Shown here piece after piece: positions 2,437 through 49,741 of a stretch of 64,000 bases of DNA. Position numbers and translations under genes: made by a program. The stretch is from positions 1-64,000 of the forward strand of contig NZ_LVWA01000002.1 of the NCBI RefSeq assembly GCF_001907195.1, in the 5' to 3' direction. Positions within the stretch are counted from its first letter, which is position 1. Each line of letters opens with the position of its first letter. The notes beneath the pieces were generated by a model. That model was not told where the DNA came from, ran no database searches, and saw only the letters and a program-made list of their open reading frames with translations. Source of the DNA: Pontibacter flavimaris. GTDB taxonomy: Bacteria; Bacteroidota; Bacteroidia; Cytophagales; Hymenobacteraceae.

Positions 2437-4878
2437 ATGACTAAAAACCCAAAAGGCAACTTCCACGAGACGGTGGTCTCCGTAAGCAGCAACGACCATG
2501 TGAAGCTGAGCGTAAACGACTTCCCGTTTGAGACCACGCTCAGCCTGGCGCCGCTTCTCTCTTACTGGGAGGACAAGCTGGAGAACGACCCCAATTGCAA
2601 CGCCGGCCGCCTGCAGGAGCTGATAGCGCTGCTGCGCGGCACGCCTGCGCTCATGGGTTCCATCGAGGATGTCTCGTTGGTGGACAAGCATATGGATACG
2701 CTGGACGTGCTGATGGGCGACATTTTTCCGGGGGCGCTGTGGGAGAACGACATCAAGGCCGTGTCGGTGCCGTTCAGGTTTCAGAGCTTTTACGCCACGC
2801 CCCGGCTGGAGGAACTGGGCCTGCTGGAGGGCACCGACTCGGCGGAAAGGCTGGAACTGGACCGCAAGACGCTGCTTTCCAGGCTCACGCTGCGGGCCTA
2901 CACCATTATACTTGCCAAGTTCTACAAGGCTAACTTCATAGTGGATGAGCCCTTTGTGTTCACCACGCACGACAAGTTTACGGGCCTGCCGCGCCATTAC
3001 AAGGTGGATGTGGACCTGAAGTTTATGGAGGTGAAGGCCAAGGGCGAGGTGAAGCCGCTGAAGGCCCAGCAGATTAACTACCTCATCAACCGCTACAACA
3101 ACCTGGACAGGTGGATGGAGCTGCTGCCGCCCGATAATTTCGAGTTCAGCGGGTTCGCCATCTTCGACTTTACGGACGTAACCATGGAGCAAACCATCTC
3201 CTCGCTCCGCTACGACCTGCTCGACAAGGACTCCGTGAGCACCCGGGAAGGCTTCACGAGCCTGCAGCAAAAGCTGCGCGTGCTCTTTGGCCTGCCAGGC
3301 ATACGGCTGGGCTTTGCCTCCTGCCCCAACCTGCGCGAGTTCGACACCAGCTACGCCCGCCGCATCTGGAGCGGCCTCATACTTACCCAGGACTGTGAGC
3401 TGTCGCTCAGCGACCTGAAGGGCTCTATCTATGAGCCTGTGATGAAGCACGGCAACACCGTGGTGGTAGAGGACCTGAAGGTGCTGCACCACCCCACCCG
3501 CATGGAGCAGAAACTGCTGGAGATGGGTATCCGCAACCTCATCATCGCGCCGCTGGAGTATGAGGGCAGCACCATTGGCCTGATGGAGCTCGCCTCGCCC
3601 ATCCCCGGCGAGCTGAACACCCTCTCCACCATCAAGCTAAAGGAGATACTGCCCCTGTTTGCCCTGGCCATGAACCGGAGCCTGGAGGAACTGCGCAGCA
3701 GCATCCAGAGCATCATCAAGGAAAAGTATACCGCCATACACCCGATCGTGGAGTGGCGCTTTACGCAGGCGGCCATTAACCTGCTGGAGAAAATGGAGCG
3801 CAACAACAGCCCGGAGATCGAACCCATCATCTTCCGCGACATCTATCCGCTCTACGGCTCCTCCGACATCCGCAGCTCCGCCTCCGAGCGCAACAAGGCC
3901 ATCCAGGGCGACCTGCTGGAGCAACTGGTGCTGGCCAAAGAGGTTATACTTGCCGTGAAGGACAGGATGCCGCTGGCCATACTTGATGAGCTGATGTTTA
4001 AGATAGACAATCTCTCGCTCAGCATTCTGCACGAGCTAAGCTCTGGCGACGAGGTGCTTATACTTGATTTCCTGCGCTCGGAGATCGAGCCGCTGTTTGA
4101 CTATTTCCTGCGGAAGGAGCCGTCGGCGGAACCGACCGTGCAGGCCTACCGCTCGGCCATCAACAACCCCTACAAGGCTGTCTACAACAAGCGCCGTGCC
4201 TACGAGGAAAGCCTGTTCATGATCAACGAGACCATCTCCGGCTTCCTGGACCGGGAGGAGGAGAAGGCGCAGCAGATCTTCCCGCACTACTTCGAGAAGT
4301 ATAAAACCGATGGCGTGGAGTATAACATCTATATCGGGGCCTCGCTGCTGAACTCCGGCGACTTCCAGCCGATCTACCTAAAGAACATGCGCCTGTGGCA
4401 GCTCATGCTGACCTGCGAGATTGCCCGCCGCATACAGAAGCTGCGCGCCGGCCTGAAACTGCCGCTCGAGATAACGCAGCTGATCCTGGTGCACGCCGAC
4501 CCGATCTCCATCCGCTACAGGCTCGATGAGAAGAAATTTGACGTGGACGGCGCCAACAACATCAGCTACGAGATCATCAAGAAGCGTATCGACAAGGCCT
4601 ACATTCTCGGCACCGAGGAGCGCCTGACGCAGCCGGGCAAGATCGCCATTGTGTACACCCAGCAGAAGGCCATGCAGGAGTACCTGCGCTACCTGGACTT
4701 CCTGCGCTCAGAGGGGTATACCGAAGGGGAGGTGGAGCACCTGGAGGTGGAGGACCTGCAGGGCGTGCAGGGCCTGAAGGCGCTGCGCGTAACCGTGAAC
4801 CTGAAAGAGGAGCTCCGCCACAACATCGACGCCGGCGACGAGCTGCTGAACATTGCCCGCTCAGCCAGCCTTAACTGA
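2437..4878 (+). CDS. Large cytoplasmic GAF-domain protein
   Basis: An 813-aa soluble protein with no signal peptide or membrane segment. A region around residues 285-430 resembles a GAF domain: a helix, then GIRLGFASCPNL, a core with NTVVVEDLKVL, and GIRNLIIAPLEYEGSTIGLMEL, the usual ligand-pocket strands. The N-terminal ~280 and C-terminal ~380 residues match nothing I can name, and no kinase, GGDEF or output domain follows. I start at ATG 2437; an in-frame TTG at 2419 is less likely. The gene appears monocistronic. It is probably a conserved cytophagal sensor or scaffold. Five of its nine Ile-Leu pairs are written ATA-CTT (see findings). Confidence 0.75.
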   Translation: MTKNPKGNFHETVVSVSSNDHVKLSVNDFPFETTLSLAPLLSYWEDKLENDPNCNAGRLQELIALLRGTPALMGSIEDVSLVDKHMDTLDVLMGDIFPGALWENDIKAVSVPFRFQSFYATPRLEELGLLEGTDSAERLELDRKTLLSRLTLRAYTIILAKFYKANFIVDEPFVFTTHDKFTGLPRHYKVDVDLKFMEVKAKGEVKPLKAQQINYLINRYNNLDRWMELLPPDNFEFSGFAIFDFTDVTMEQTISSLRYDLLDKDSVSTREGFTSLQQKLRVLFGLPGIRLGFASCPNLREFDTSYARRIWSGLILTQDCELSLSDLKGSIYEPVMKHGNTVVVEDLKVLHHPTRMEQKLLEMGIRNLIIAPLEYEGSTIGLMELASPIPGELNTLSTIKLKEILPLFALAMNRSLEELRSSIQSIIKEKYTAIHPIVEWRFTQAAINLLEKMERNNSPEIEPIIFRDIYPLYGSSDIRSSASERNKAIQGDLLEQLVLAKEVILAVKDRMPLAILDELMFKIDNLSLSILHELSSGDEVLILDFLRSEIEPLFDYFLRKEPSAEPTVQAYRSAINNPYKAVYNKRRAYEESLFMINETISGFLDREEEKAQQIFPHYFEKYKTDGVEYNIYIGASLLNSGDFQPIYLKNMRLWQLMLTCEIARRIQKLRAGLKLPLEITQLILVHADPISIRYRLDEKKFDVDGANNISYEIIKKRIDKAYILGTEERLTQPGKIAIVYTQQKAMQEYLRYLDFLRSEGYTEGEVEHLEVEDLQGVQGLKALRVTVNLKEELRHNIDAGDELLNIARSASLN

Positions 4879-6096: not shown

Positions 6097-6321
6097 ATGT
6101 CAAAAACGAGAATAACGGTAAACAGCAACGGATCGCTCCGTGTGGAGGGCGAGGATTTTGAGATTGTAGACAAAGACGGGAACACCTATGGCCTGGGCGG
6201 GCGCACGCTCGTTTCCATCTGCCGCTGCGGCCTGTCCAAGAACAAGCCCTTCTGCGACGGTTCCCACAAAGGGCACTTCGAGCACAACGCCGAGGCTTTC
6301 GACCTTCCCCCTAAAAAATAA
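6097..6321 (+). CDS. CDGSH iron-sulfur protein
   Basis: A 74-aa protein with one CDGSH zinc-finger-like motif, C-R-C-G-L-S-K-N-K-P-F-C-D-G-S-H, the three-Cys/one-His ligand set for a [2Fe-2S] cluster. The N-terminal half (RITVNSNGSLRVEGEDFEIVDKDGN) matches the usual small single-CDGSH proteins of bacteria, thought to act in redox or Fe-S handling. It is followed after 10 bp by the DUF2007 gene, so the two are probably co-transcribed. Cytoplasmic; the physiological partner is unknown. Confidence 0.93.
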   Translation: MSKTRITVNSNGSLRVEGEDFEIVDKDGNTYGLGGRTLVSICRCGLSKNKPFCDGSHKGHFEHNAEAFDLPPKK

Positions 6322-6331
6322 CCCATACTGT

Positions 6332-6733
6332 ATGGCTGAGCGCCTGGTAACCATCGCCACGTTTAACGAACTCACGGAGGCACACATCCTCAAGGGCCGC
6401 CTGGAGGCAGAGGGTATACTTTGCTTTCTGGGGGATGAGCACATCGTGGGCGTGCACCCTTTTTACTCTGTGGCCGTGGGGGGCGTGAAGCTGAAAGTGA
6501 CCGAGGGCGACGTGATGGAGGCCAAGGCCATACTTGCCCGCATACAGGAAGGCTCCAGCCAGTTCGACTACGACAGTATAGACATGGCTCCGCCTGTGCA
6601 GGAGCAGCCACGGTCCCTCGTCTGCCCCAACTGCGGCTCTGATAACGTAGGGGAGCTCGGCATCCCGATGCCGTTTATGAGCAGGCGCTATACTTGTTAT
6701 AACTGCAGCCACGCCTGGAAAGAGCGAAAATAG
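6332..6733 (+). CDS. DUF2007 protein with C-terminal zinc ribbon
   Basis: A 133-aa protein. Residues 1-70 (LVTIATFNELTEAHILKGRLEAEGI) match the DUF2007 fold, a small ferredoxin-like domain described as a putative signal-transducing domain. The C-terminus carries two Cys pairs (CPNCGSDN and CYNC), a zinc ribbon. A longer open frame begins upstream inside the CDGSH gene, but the ATG at 6332 gives the conserved N-terminus and follows the CDGSH stop by 10 bp. Ile-Leu is written ATA-CTT twice, at residues 28-29 and in AILAR. Function unknown. Confidence 0.85.
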   Translation: MAERLVTIATFNELTEAHILKGRLEAEGILCFLGDEHIVGVHPFYSVAVGGVKLKVTEGDVMEAKAILARIQEGSSQFDYDSIDMAPPVQEQPRSLVCPNCGSDNVGELGIPMPFMSRRYTCYNCSHAWKERK

Positions 6734-9471: not shown

Positions 9472-9742
9472 ACGTGCCTCAGCAGTCATACTATAATCGC
9501 TGCCAGACTTATACTTTGGCCATACTTTATACTTCAATTATACTTTACTTACTGCTCTCTCCGATTTGCAATCCAAAAGCATGGCAAAGGCCTTGGCAAT
9601 TTTCGCTGTTCCGGACATTCTTATCCGGAACCAATTCTGCTGCGAATCTCCCGATCCGCGGAAGCTATACTTATACTTGTCAGTTTATACTTAGTGCTAT
9701 GCTTTTATACTTTGCTGGCGCAAGCGTCCGCTTGTGCCTCTA
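9472..9742. other. TATACTT-rich intergenic tract with a REP-like palindrome
   Basis: No gene is visible. The tract carries about eight TATACTT or CATACTT words, all in the same orientation, several in direct succession (9502-9550, 9666-9712). A REP-like hairpin GGCGCAAGCGTCCGCTTGTGCC lies at 9717-9738. The same hairpin recurs at 17422-17443, again in a TATACTT-rich tract upstream of a ~200-bp repeat copy. Confidence 0.6.
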
Positions 9743-9940
9743 CTAGCTGCCGCTGATCCTGTAGGCTTACAAGCCTATCATTGCATTTCTGACTTTGGTG
9801 CTCTCAAGCCCGAGAGGCCTCGCCTTCGGGCATCGCGCTGTGTTCCCTTCCTTTGCTCCTAACGTCGCAATGCCCTTACGGGCACCGGAATCTCACAAGG
9901 CGCTCAACCCAAAGGCTGGGATCAGTTCGATAGCCGCTGC
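9743..9940 (+). repeat. ~200-bp dispersed repeat, copy B
   Basis: Starts CTAGCTGCCGCTGATCCT and ends GGGATCAGTTCGATAGCCGC. It shares both ends and the GCATCGCGCTG and GCGCTCAACCCAAAGGCTGG segments with copies A and C. Its middle part (about 9842-9890) differs from the other two, so it is the most diverged copy. Confidence 0.75.
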
Positions 9941-17116: not shown

Positions 17117-17140
17117 GTTTTATACTTTTGTTGATAGAGG

Positions 17141-17175
17141 AAACAGCGCTGCAGTTTTGCAGCGCTGTTTTATTT
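17141..17175 (+). terminator. Terminator after cyclophilin
   Basis: AACAGCGCTGCA pairs perfectly with TGCAGCGCTGTT across GTTT and is followed by TTATTTA. Confidence 0.85.
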
Positions 17176-17186
17176 ATACCTGGTGG

Positions 17187-17547
17187 TGCAGGGCGAAACT
17201 TATACTTGTCTGCATCAGGATTTTCAGGGTGGAAGGATGGACAGGATTTTGAACTTAGGTTATACTTTTCCTCCCGATTTATACTTCATCTAAACTTTTA
17301 TGCCTGCTTTTTTCCATGGTGCAAGTCTTCAGACTTGTATCCTACTATGGCGTCGGGTTTGCAACCCGACTGGCTTGAAAAGCCATACTTTATACTTGAG
17401 CTATACTTTCATACTTGCGCTGGCGCAAGCGTCCGCTTGTGCCTTTTAATCCTTGAGTCATACTTCATACTTCGGCTATACTTTGGCTATACTTGATTTA
17501 TACTTTCTTAGCCGCTGCTTCCTGCTTTTTGACACCAGCTATACTTG
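17187..17547. other. TATACTT-rich intergenic tract with REP-like palindromes
   Basis: No gene is visible. It contains nine TATACTT words, all reading on the plus strand, plus several CATACTT variants. Three short palindromes are present: CAAGTCTTCAGACTTG (17332-17347), GTCGGGTTTGCAACCCGAC (17352-17370) and GGCGCAAGCGTCCGCTTGTGCC (17422-17443); the last is shared with 9717-9738. Confidence 0.6.
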
Positions 17548-17755
17548 CTAGCTGCCGCTGATCCTCAGTCTTACAAACGTATCGTATCATTTCGAGCTTT
17601 GGCTCCCTCAAGGCCGGGAGGCCTCGCCTTTGGGCATCGCGCTGGGAGCTTTTCCTGCCCTCGTGCCTCGGGCTGCCTCGCTATCGCTCGTCACCGGAAA
17701 AACTCGCATAGGCGCTCAACCCAAAGGCTGGAATCAGGTCGATAGCTCCCGCTGA
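17548..17755 (+). repeat. ~200-bp dispersed repeat, copy C
   Basis: Begins CTAGCTGCCGCTGATCCT like copy B. It shares a long central segment with copy A: the CGCGCTGGGAGC-TTTTCCT stretch, CTCGTGCCTCGGGCTGCCTC and CACCGGAAAAACTCGCATAGG. It ends GGAATCAGGTCGATAGC. An open frame runs through it, but its translation has no protein-like features and the frame is not kept in the other copies. Confidence 0.78.
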
Positions 17756-17767
17756 CTAAGCTTGAAC

Positions 17768-17966
17768 AGAGCTCCCTCCCCTGTTTTTAGGGGAGGGCTG
17801 GGGTGGGGTTCGTGTAGGGACAGGTCGCGACCTGTCCGTGCGATAGCTGTGGAAATGAAACTCATACTTTGGCAACAGTAATTACAGGGCTCCCCTCCTT
17901 GGTTAAGTCTAGGATCCCGGACTTGTTCCGGGGGAAGGGCAAGGGGTGGTTGGACCCGGTACTACG
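17768..17966. repeat. CCCTCCCC hairpin plus GGACAGGTCGCGACCTGTCC block, copy 2
   Basis: The hairpin at 17770-17808 is followed directly by the 20-bp palindrome at 17818-17837 and a tail homologous to 10044-10160. This copy has an extra ~35 bp inside its distal hairpin (GGATCCCGGACTTGTTCCGG region). The two modules are adjacent here but separate and in the other order near 10.1 kb. Confidence 0.72.
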
Positions 17967-18155
17967 TAGCCGGATAAACAGCATACAAACGCGGAAAAGC
18001 CAGCCCTATACTTCATACTTCAATCATACTTACTGATTTGAGCTGTATTTATACTTGCCTTGCCACTTTATACTTTATACCTGCTCTTATACTTGAGCCA
18101 TACTTCCTACTTGCTTCCGCCATACTTTCATAGGCACTTTATGGCTTATGGCATA
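17967..18155. other. TATACTT/CATACTT-rich intergenic tract
   Basis: No gene is visible. TATACTT occurs at least four times and CATACTT about five times between 18007 and 18135, again all in one orientation. Confidence 0.5.
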
Positions 18156-39343: not shown

Positions 39344-40681
39344 ATGTTTTCATACAGAGCCGCGGCGCTTTTCCTGGTCGGATTAGCACTACTACTACCA
39401 AGCCTGGCCCAGAGCCAGGAGCAGCTTTCGCTGGAGCAGGCCATCCGCATCGGACTACAAAACAACTATGATATCCGGATTGCCGGCAGGCAGGAAGCCA
39501 TCTCGGAGAACAACGCAACGCTGGGCAACGCCGGCTTCCTGCCCAATGTGGATGGCAGGGCCTCCCGCACCTTCAGCGAGAACAACTCGCGGCAGGAGTT
39601 CCAGACCGGCCCGGACCGCGTACGGGACGGAGCCAGCTCCAACAACATGAGTTATGGAATCAACCTGAACTGGGTGATTTTTGACGGGCTGGGCATGTTT
39701 ATCAACCTGGAGCGGCTCAAGGCCATCGAAAAGTCCGGGGAGCTGTTTACCAAGCAGACGATAGAGAATACCCTTGCCGTTATCACGGCCAGTTACTTTG
39801 AGGTAGCCCGCCAGGCGTCCAAGATCAAAGCGATACAGGATGCCATTGCCATTTCGGAGGCGCGCGTGGAGATTGCGCAGGCCCAGTTTGATGTGGGCGT
39901 GAGTGCCAAGGTGGAGATTCTGCGCGCCCAGGTGGACTACAACGCCGACCGCTCGGAGCTGCTGCTGCAGGAGGAGGTGCTGCAAAACGCCAAGATCAAC
40001 CTGAACCAGCTGCTGGGCCGCAACCCCGACATCGATTTTGTGGTGACGGACAGCATTCTGGTGGACCCAACGGTGAACTACAGCGTGGCAGCCAACAGCC
40101 TGAACGCTGCCAACCCGCTGCTGCAGCGCCTGCAACTGGAGCGTCAGCTGGCAAACCTGGACATCCGGTCGGTGCGTGCCAGCCGCTTCCCGACGGTGAG
40201 CGTGCTGAGCGCCTATAACTTCAGCCGCTCCGAGGCAGAGCCACTCAACGAGTTCCAGGCCAGGTTTAACCAGAACCGTGGCTACAACTATGGCCTAAGC
40301 CTGAGCGTGCCGATCTTTAACGGCTTCAACATCAACCGCCAGGCACAGAACGCGCGCATCAACCTGGAGACGGCCAACCTGGAGCTGCAGCGCGAGGAGA
40401 ACCGCCTGCAATCTGACCTGGCCCGGGCCTACAGCCAGTACACCAACCGCCTGCAACTGCTGGAGCTGGAGGAAAGCAACCTGAAACTGGCCCAGGAGAA
40501 CGCCGAGATTGCCCTGGAGCGCTACAGGCTGGGTATCCTGACAGCGATTGAGCTACGCGAGGCACAGCGCAACGAGCTGGTGGCCTCTAACCGCCTCATC
40601 GACATACAGTACCAGGCCAAGGCGGCAGAGATTGAGCTAAAACGCCTGAGCAGCACCCTGCTGCAGGAAAGCCAACTGTAA
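39344..40681 (+). CDS. TolC-family outer-membrane efflux protein
   Basis: A 445-aa outer-membrane factor. It has a signal peptide (cleavage after LAQSQ) and two repeats of long helices with the LSLEQAIRIGLQNNYDIRIAGRQ and LDIRSVRASRFPTVSVLSAYNFSRSE patterns, the duplicated OEP domain that forms the channel-tunnel trimer. It closes the tripartite pump with the adaptor and permease upstream (63 bp gap). A perfect inverted repeat made of AAGTATA words follows its stop codon. Confidence 0.94.
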   Translation: MFSYRAAALFLVGLALLLPSLAQSQEQLSLEQAIRIGLQNNYDIRIAGRQEAISENNATLGNAGFLPNVDGRASRTFSENNSRQEFQTGPDRVRDGASSNNMSYGINLNWVIFDGLGMFINLERLKAIEKSGELFTKQTIENTLAVITASYFEVARQASKIKAIQDAIAISEARVEIAQAQFDVGVSAKVEILRAQVDYNADRSELLLQEEVLQNAKINLNQLLGRNPDIDFVVTDSILVDPTVNYSVAANSLNAANPLLQRLQLERQLANLDIRSVRASRFPTVSVLSAYNFSRSEAEPLNEFQARFNQNRGYNYGLSLSVPIFNGFNINRQAQNARINLETANLELQREENRLQSDLARAYSQYTNRLQLLELEESNLKLAQENAEIALERYRLGILTAIELREAQRNELVASNRLIDIQYQAKAAEIELKRLSSTLLQESQL

Positions 40682-40696
40682 CTAACTATACCGGTT

Positions 40697-40742
40697 CTTA
40701 AAGTATAAAAGTATAGCCACGGCTATACTTTTATACTTTAAG
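40697..40742. terminator. Perfect 22-bp inverted repeat made of AAGTATA/TATACTT
   Basis: Arms at 40697-40718 and 40721-40742 are exactly complementary with only two bases between them. Each arm contains two copies of the word AAGTATA (or TATACTT). It sits between the efflux operon and the MgtC-like gene and may act as a terminator, although no clean T-tract follows. It resembles the paired-uptake-sequence terminators of Pasteurellaceae and Neisseria in form. Confidence 0.7.
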
Positions 40743-44034: not shown

Positions 44035-44069
44035 ACTTATACTTATACTTATACTTATACTTATACTTA
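44035..44069 (+). repeat. ACTTAT hexamer microsatellite
   Basis: ACTTAT repeated 5.8 times without error, i.e. overlapping TATACTT words in register. It directly abuts a terminator hairpin. Confidence 0.9.
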
Positions 44070-49671: not shown

Positions 49672-49704
49672 CGTTTATGATTTCGTTTTTAAGTATGGGA
49701 AAGA

Positions 49705-49741
49705 GGCTCGTTTAAAGTATAAAGTATACTTTAAACGAGCC
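49705..49741. terminator. Perfect 17-bp inverted repeat containing AAGTATA words
   Basis: Arms 49705-49721 and 49725-49741 are fully complementary with a 3-base spacer; each ends in AAGTATA/TATACTT. It lies between the Gfo/Idh gene (stop at 49745) and the isomerase gene (start 49671). It could attenuate transcription inside the operon. Confidence 0.65.

Follow-up and report, generated by a model that had tools for sequence, protein, structure and literature searches.

Genome-wide sequence words that differ between lineages as dialects are best known from pilus-driven DNA uptake in the Neisseriaceae. Their DNA uptake sequences (DUS) are short, asymmetric words in thousands of copies, genes included. 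According to the available part of PMC3630211, their dialects keep a constant core and lie one or a few bases apart, a single genome can hold two of them, and occupancies are about 1-2.5% (2.5% for the kingDUS). The uptake signal sequences (USS) of the Pasteurellaceae are likewise short genome-wide words that bias the uptake of kin DNA (available part of PMC7811141), and the cyanobacterial HIP1 (GCGATCGC) reaches a very high density and gives way to alternates in some lineages, with HIP1 and the alternates tracking methyltransferases (available part of PMC4390886). Here, we describe the word AAGTATRR (R = A or G), which we found in a 64,000-nucleotide stretch of the Bacteroidota member Pontibacter flavimaris (contig NZ_LVWA01000002.1, positions 1 to 64,000; hereafter, the window) and across its genus. 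It is an asymmetric 8-bp word that is found on both strands in coding and noncoding DNA. Unlike the DUS, which measure 10-12 bp, it spans 8 bp, has about 12,000 7-mer copies in the P. flavimaris genome (extrapolated from 1,175 in 464 kb), belongs to a different phylum, comes without a detected type IV pilus ATPase and is known here from sequence alone. It differs from the USS in its sequence and in that a pilus-type machine was not found, and from HIP1, which is palindromic and has matching methyltransferases, in its asymmetry. By analogy of form, the system appears most like the uptake-sequence dialects, with the DUS as the best match. Among the matches listed in a literature search, with subscription papers and preprints outside its reach, there was no account of such a word in Pontibacter or the Hymenobacteraceae.

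The core AAGTAT is followed by R in about 95% of the cases, and the next base is again mostly R. Within the window, ATACTT/AAGTAT occurs 245 times, against 17.5 in dinucleotide shuffles (27 in the largest), and the top 6- to 9-mers are strings of the word (e.g., AAGTATAA, 106 vs. 0.9, and AAGTATAAA, 65 vs. 0.2 under a dinucleotide model). Genome-wide, AAGTATAA, a form of the AAG dialect, has 6,609 copies against 88 for the reversed control. The sample of this genome used below consists of the window and 20 further 20-kb stretches (464 kb in all, or about 10% of the genome), with 338 open reading frames (ORFs; 122,433 codons) from a simple mechanical caller, some of which are spurious (17128-17496, by its look). 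In this sample, the 6-bp core recurs about every 265 bp, the word occupies 1.8% (7-mer) to 2.3% (8-mer) of the DNA, and its density is 8.31/kb outside ORFs vs. 2.58/kb inside them. All six coding phases hold it (AAGTAT 235/109/174, ATACTT 187/116/128). One 20-kb stretch of lower GC (L106, G000:C12:1-20000), with ORFs that by eye include likely urease accessory genes, has 1.85 words/kb, half the usual density.

The recurring word bends codon choice, so that Ile-Leu is spelled ATA-CTT. The initial annotation had seen this in the gene of a GAF-domain protein, where it counted five ATA CTT among nine Ile-Leu pairs; the ORF has nine such pairs, with ATA CTT at exactly the five positions that had been named (Table 1). 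Two in-frame ATA CTT, reported for a DUF2007 gene, are also present in an ORF that we presume to be that gene (the name is putative). The Ser-Ile and Lys-Tyr spellings proposed for the opposite orientation are likewise borne out: AGT-ATA is seen 145 times vs. 8.6 expected (17-fold, the highest ratio among the 25 codon pairs listed), and the GAF gene has AAG TAT in frame at two sites. ATA and CTT had been called rare; at 18.6% of the Ile codons and 9.4% of the Leu codons, they are uncommon but not very rare. Comparison of the codon pairs over the 464 kb with the counts that single-codon usage predicts gave 187 ATA-CTT vs. 12.3 (15-fold; z of 50, the highest of all pairs), along with 235 AAG-TAT vs. 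64.4 and 107 TAT-ACT vs. 12.0, and these expectations are conservative because the words themselves inflate the single-codon counts. Hence, neither are the two codons common nor do the pairs occur at the expected frequency. The proposal that selection or bias for a DNA word acts through the coding layer is supported by the six phases, the denser noncoding copies and a codon pair that shifts with the word of the lineage. Not visible to that annotation were the dialects, the in-place conservation, the footprint of 8 bp and the finding that two second replicons are little enriched, all of which are described below.

Counts of AAGTATAA split 37 genomes of the genus into high and low groups. A simple gain and loss of AAGTATA among the species was rejected, as most of the "low" genomes carry another dialect: de novo 7-mers from 22-kb loci recovered AGGTATA for the group of roseus and indicus and AACTATA for that of populi and fetidus. 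AGGTATAR exceeds 4,000 copies in 12 of 50 genus genomes and in none of 100 genomes that represent five further genera of the family, whose counts differ from the reversed control by no more than about 2.3-fold; AACTATAR exceeds 4,000 in seven of the 50, none of them among the 12 rich in AGGTATAR. No excess of AAGTATAA was seen in 22 genomes of the order outside the genus (highest ratio 1.1). With the line drawn at 2,000, the 37 genomes in which all three words were counted comprise 16 AAG, 9 AGG and 2 AAC genomes, 2 mixed AAG+AAC genomes (G026 with 3,911 and 6,494 copies, G032 with 4,476 and 4,582), 1 with a weak word of the GGGTATA/NGGTATR type (E15-1; G036 and G067, equated through their identical counts) and 7 with none. 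The dialects (AAG, AGG and AAC, each followed by TATA) thus share a core and are mutually exclusive except in the two mixed genomes. The genomes in which none of the three words is strong are G002, G007, G023, G024, G025, G027 and G033; no other strong word was found in 20-62 kb each of G002, G007, G023, G024, G027 and G033, and some of the genomes without a strong word keep a residual AAGTATAA above the control (4.8-fold in G007). On a tree of the GAF protein (a single gene; 35 family members and two outgroups), the high/low AAG state requires six changes, four of them forced by the starred branches. Separately, a chromosomal stretch with a GC of 0.45 (L189, G020:C1:3200001-3220000) has 14 AAGTATR and 15 AGGTATA and might have come in as an island from a relative with the AGG dialect.

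In coding DNA, the codon pair in excess depends on the dialect. Two AAG sets have a large excess of ATA-CTT (195 vs. 13.7 and 141 vs. 11.8 expected); the figures for the AGG set (14 vs. 8.2), the AAC set (12 vs. 5.8) and the genomes without a strong word (4 vs. 4.1) lie much closer to expectation. The AGG set instead has 88 ATA-CCT vs. 10.5, and the AAC set has 43 ATA-GTT vs. 7.3. Across species, the five GAF sites give 65 cells for the 13 AAG species, of which 29 hold ATA CTT; it fills none of the 60 cells for the 12 AGG species, 1 of the 25 for 5 AAC species (among which L037, which bears both words, was placed) and 1 of the 20 for four others. At the level of dipeptides, Lys-Tyr is slightly in excess in the AAG sets only (345 vs. 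276 and 352 vs. 284), in line with the AAG word, and not in the AGG set (189 vs. 219), the AAC set (66 vs. 67) or the genomes without a word (48 vs. 59). The AGG set has more Ile-Pro than expected (288 vs. 237), yet so do the AAG sets (342 vs. 303 and 328 vs. 267), and Asn-Tyr is in excess in the AGG set (227 vs. 177); on account of the latter two, an effect on the proteome is not settled.

The words are also conserved in place, as judged from two species pairs, one region each, with local same-phase windows as the control. When chinhatensis is aligned with mucosus (92% identity), 205 of 247 coding copies of AAGTATA are retained (0.83 vs. 0.57 for the control), as are 112 of 161 noncoding copies (0.70 vs. 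0.47); the reverse direction yields 210 of 257 (control 0.58) and 109 of 143 (0.49). For the AGG-dialect pair BT731 and HSC-36F09 (87.5% identity), AGGTATA is kept at 108 of 130 coding (0.83 vs. 0.38) and 41 of 52 noncoding sites (0.79 vs. 0.40), with 107 of 146 (control 0.40) and 42 of 66 (0.39) in reverse. The foreign AGGTATA is at the control level in the AAG pair (21 of 35, 0.60 vs. 0.63; 2 of 6 vs. 0.45). Among the other control words of this pair, the reversed word and AAGCATA are at or below the control in most cells and TCCGGA is at the control, CTGCAG is slightly above it in coding DNA (0.72 vs. 0.62), and AAGTTTA is above it with small counts (14 of 19 and 7 of 7; the other way, 14 of 20 and 7 of 12). 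Substitutions drop at word positions 1-8, with the flanks at background, such that these 8 bp change at about half the flanking rate: 0.02-0.07 vs. 0.08-0.12 in the AAG pair, and 0.04-0.10 vs. 0.09-0.17 in one direction of the AGG pair; in its other direction (0.04-0.15 vs. 0.10-0.18), positions 1 and 4 are little reduced.

Where a site has been lost or gained, its partner may differ at any of the seven positions, mostly by single substitutions in coding copies and often by gaps in noncoding ones (21 of 161). A one-step conversion from a single neighboring word is, hence, unsupported. These data also bear on whether pure mutation bias or slippage could build the word with no recognition by a protein. 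The noncoding gaps and a head-to-tail run of five copies in the window (Table 1) are what slippage would leave; however, the predominance of single substitutions in coding copies, the spread of differences over all seven positions, a conservation 1.4- to 2.2-fold over the local controls and the fact that two of the three second replicons show little enrichment speak against such an origin, which we regard as very unlikely.

Across the clades (74% identity), the dialects face each other at the same sites. AGGTATA is opposite AAGTATA at 14 of 71 sites (0.20), which are 14 of the 23 one-mismatch partners, and in the reverse direction at 14 of 67 sites (14 of 17 partners); a second cross-clade pair gave 15 of 76 (15 of 23 partners) and, reversed, 15 of 73 (15 of 21). 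Under a null in which the same base change is scored in the same alignments over all other 7-mers that have that base at position 2, this happens in 2.0-2.7% of the windows and 6.6-9.1% of the one-mismatch partners (first pair 0.021, partners 0.069, and reverse 0.027, partners 0.091; second pair 0.020 and reverse 0.025). The excess of dialect switches is therefore about seven- to tenfold, and orthologous sites are accordingly words in both lineages but in different dialects. This pattern suggests that the word is recognized by something whose preference has altered at the first three bases. That an evolving factor recognizes the word is, taken alone, the better-supported part of our interpretation and is probably correct.

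Taking the small contig of a two-contig AAG genome as a second replicon (three genomes, 40 kb each, expectation from trinucleotides), we counted 5 AAGTATA vs. 3.9 expected, 17 vs. 8.9 and 24 vs. 4.8, while the matching chromosome samples (20, 240 and 20 kb) have 28 vs. 2.3, 382 vs. 30.0 and 16 vs. 1.8; two of the three second replicons are, thus, little enriched in these samples. Prophage loci, with an HK97 capsid gene in 2 of the 50 genomes and loci of 3.8 kb, are too few for word counts. As a separate observation that was not used as evidence, the doubled word occurs in viral contigs on at least 120 stretches, which were selected because they hold the word; the 15 with the highest ratio (2.6 to 6.9) are mostly AT-rich and contain 2 to 16 words each. 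In one AT-rich viral contig (51.7 kb; L255/L275), a small word cluster lies next to an ORF that is ParA-like by eye; it has the look of a local array without relation to the word of Pontibacter.

Along genes, the word density is about flat; between them, it peaks at 17.8 words/kb in the first 20 bp past stop codons (vs. 7.6/kb upstream of starts) and at 19.0 words/kb in convergent gaps below 100 bp. Noncoding words on the same strand of the P. flavimaris genome favor spacings of 6-8, 11-12 and 18-19 bp, and the 11-bp spacer reads RRYYN (47 cases: R,R in 100%, then Y in 92% and 96%). These peaks are clear in this genome and the chinhatensis/mucosus sets and absent from 11 other AAG loci; the AGG set has spacings of 6 bp (27) and, more weakly, 12 bp (11). 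Each dialect has an excess of inverted pairs that overlap at an offset of 4 bp (27 of AAGTATACTT in the P. flavimaris set, 31 of AACTATAGTT and 12 of AGGTATACCT), and the palindrome AAGTATACTT is a minority form (27 pairs among 1,744 cores).

A Pontibacter-specific nucleoid-associated or chromosome-organizing protein might bind thousands of the words, with selection on weak binding and a specificity that drifted by lineage. The sharp 8-bp footprint and the conservation in place fit such a protein, as do the 7/11/18-bp peaks with an RRYY spacer at 11 bp, approximately one helical turn, and a strand polarity that is not strong (56-61%). However, that spacing grammar is confined to P. flavimaris and the chinhatensis/mucosus sets and missing from the 11 other AAG loci and the AGG set, resident second replicons should meet the protein and yet two of the three are little enriched, and the one-by-one selection of about 12,000 weak sites would be demanding. 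On balance, we consider this explanation rather unlikely, though it ranks next after the proposal favored below.

With the GC skew of 20-kb blocks as a stand-in for the leading strand, AAGTATA leans to the G-rich strand at 702:455 (61%), compared with 2085:1701 (55%) for permutations of the word letters with the words masked (chi-square p of 9e-4, for which the clustered words are not independent). When clusters within 60 bp are collapsed, the core stands at 730:582 (56%), like the masked control, and words within genes are near balance between sense and antisense (518 vs. 431). The 55% of the control and the 56% of the collapsed core mean that polarity is weak at most, although a slight lean may exist beyond what composition gives. 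A signal that orients recombination or segregation, of the type of Chi or the FtsK-orienting polar sequences (KOPS), would draw on the 61% lean over its masked permutations; a strong strand polarity with replication was not found in this test (61%, 56% collapsed, control 55%), and the balance within genes also disfavors such a signal, which we deem highly improbable.

Candidate readers of the word were sought in the 50 genus genomes. By analogy with HIP1, whose alternates are replaced between lineages and track methyltransferases (as far as the available part of PMC4390886 goes), the word could be what an orphan DNA methyltransferase with a link to mismatch repair produces or targets, with one methylase per dialect. 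Against this, the word is not a palindrome, lost and gained sites differ at all seven positions, and the methyltransferase families PF01555, PF02384 and PF07669 are not common to all word-bearing genomes. PF01555 has no match in P. flavimaris and 18 more of the 50; PF02384 matches all 50, but with an E of 7e-5 or weaker in G006 (AAG) and G153; and PF07669 has none in G021 (AAG), G036 and G002. Each is, hence, missing or weak in some word-bearing genome and was set aside as the shared factor, with the C5 and D12 methylases lying outside this search. A methyltransferase-linked origin is, in our estimate, unlikely.

As the likeliest driver, we tentatively favor a recognized self-word coupled to a bias in uptake or recombination. 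Under this proposal, a putative sequence-specific factor of Pontibacter would bind the word all along the chromosome; its specificity would have shifted at the first three positions (AAG, AGG, AAC) with TATR kept, the sites following the shift. In its favor are the strong enrichment, the mutually exclusive dialects, the conservation and dialect switches in place, the two little-enriched second replicons, an occupancy near that of the kingDUS, the DUS precedent for two dialects in a genome and the high densities past stop codons and in short convergent gaps. By analogy with the Neisseriaceae DUS, the word might label DNA as self and thereby bias uptake and recombination; exchange with kin DNA would then spread and repair the words, and those in coding regions would be passengers. 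The uptake step is a guess from this analogy. According to the available part of PMC8459023, natural competence in Riemerella, another member of the Bacteroidota, involves ComEC, DprA, ComF, RecA and additional proteins of unknown identity, and uptake without the Neisseria machine is therefore potentially possible in the phylum.

Several observations weigh against the favored proposal. Among the candidates tested (pilus ATPase, ComEC and the three methyltransferase families), no recognizing factor was identified. A type IV pilus/type II secretion ATPase was not found in the 50 genus genomes with the PF00437 profile, in a search that did not extend to ComP itself: the profile matched only in part, over about 38-66 residues and mostly within model positions 116-176, with three genomes barely over the cut-off, and the known DUS/USS machine is therefore absent. 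ComEC is present in all 50, word or no word, and is for that reason uninformative. We know of no evidence for natural competence in Pontibacter, nor did the literature searched hold any. The third of the second replicons (G019) is enriched 5-fold (24 vs. 4.8). Leftover AAGTATA in the AGG pair is kept mildly above the control in coding DNA (15 of 23 vs. 0.43; 13 of 21 vs. 0.44) and in noncoding DNA (7 of 11 vs. 0.46; 9 of 14 vs. 0.50), which fits remnants but blurs the rule that a lineage conserves its own dialect. Inverted word pairs are rare save for the overlapping AAGTATACTT. Finally, the even spacing of a simple uptake optimum was not seen: words per gene are uneven, with a dispersion index of 1.73 and 28 of 255 genes without a word vs. 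20.2 expected.

Table 1. Word copies and associated features of the window
Feature	Position	Strand	Basis or occurrence
GAF-domain protein gene, 813 aa, seven 6-bp core copies	2437..4878	+	Pfam GAF PF01590, E 9.3e-5, residues 333-390
Word AAGTAT, in gene ATA CTT (Ile-Leu)	2908..2913	-	ATA CTT in 5/13 AAG species, 0/12 AGG
Word, ATA CTT (Ile-Leu)	3379..3384	-	3/13 AAG species, 0/12 AGG
Word in other orientation, AAG TAT (Lys-Tyr)	3724..3729	+	Frame by arithmetic
Word, ATA CTT (Ile-Leu)	3946..3951	-	10/13 AAG species, 0/12 AGG
Word, ATA CTT (Ile-Leu)	3979..3984	-	4/13 AAG species, 0/12 AGG
Word, ATA CTT (Ile-Leu)	4060..4065	-	7/13 AAG species, 0/12 AGG
Word in other orientation, AAG TAT (Lys-Tyr)	4297..4302	+	Frame by arithmetic
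Two head-to-tail words directly past the GAF stop codon	4882..4893	+	Word matches
ORF with two in-frame ATA CTT (6416, 6530 by arithmetic), presumed DUF2007 gene	6188..6733	+	ORF call
Word-dense intergenic stretch, many 7- and 11-bp same-strand spacings	17122..18127	.	Word matches
Inverted repeat of two words each way, past the ORF ending at 40681	40701..40738	.	Putative hairpin, by eye
6-bp core five times, head to tail	44039..44068	-	Word matches
Intergenic inverted repeat of words including AAGTATACTT	49691..49731	.	Putative hairpin, by eye

The window further contains, by eye, three diverged copies (1-220, about 9,700-9,930 and 17,540-17,760) of a noncoding sequence of about 200 bp, which adjoin short inverted repeats resembling repetitive extragenic palindromes (REP-like) and word-rich stretches. 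In two other genera of the family (20 kb each; L123 of g24 and L125 of g25), we observed an excess of palindromic 6-mers (TCCGGA 52 vs. 12.2, CCTAGG 56 vs. 8.0, each site counted on both strands), and TCCGGA is also high in Botryobacter (72 vs. 27.2).

It is quite conceivable, at close to an even chance, that the Bacteroidota possess a self-word system of their own that arose independently: a genus-wide identity word with a reader protein unrelated to the pilus receptors, whose specificity would have changed at least two times (three with the weak NGG type), dragging thousands of sites and codon choice along in place, with the mixed AAG+AAC genomes caught mid-switch. A dense dialect word in a genus without a detected pilus machine lets one ask how a factor and some ten thousand sites change together, and switched, mixed and nearly wordless relatives are all found within the single genus Pontibacter. 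Seven genomes that lack a strong word, together with two mixed ones, offer a natural experiment for finding the factor through gene content and residue covariation. More generally, a codon-pair bias, and perhaps some dipeptide bias, can stem from a DNA word rather than from translation.

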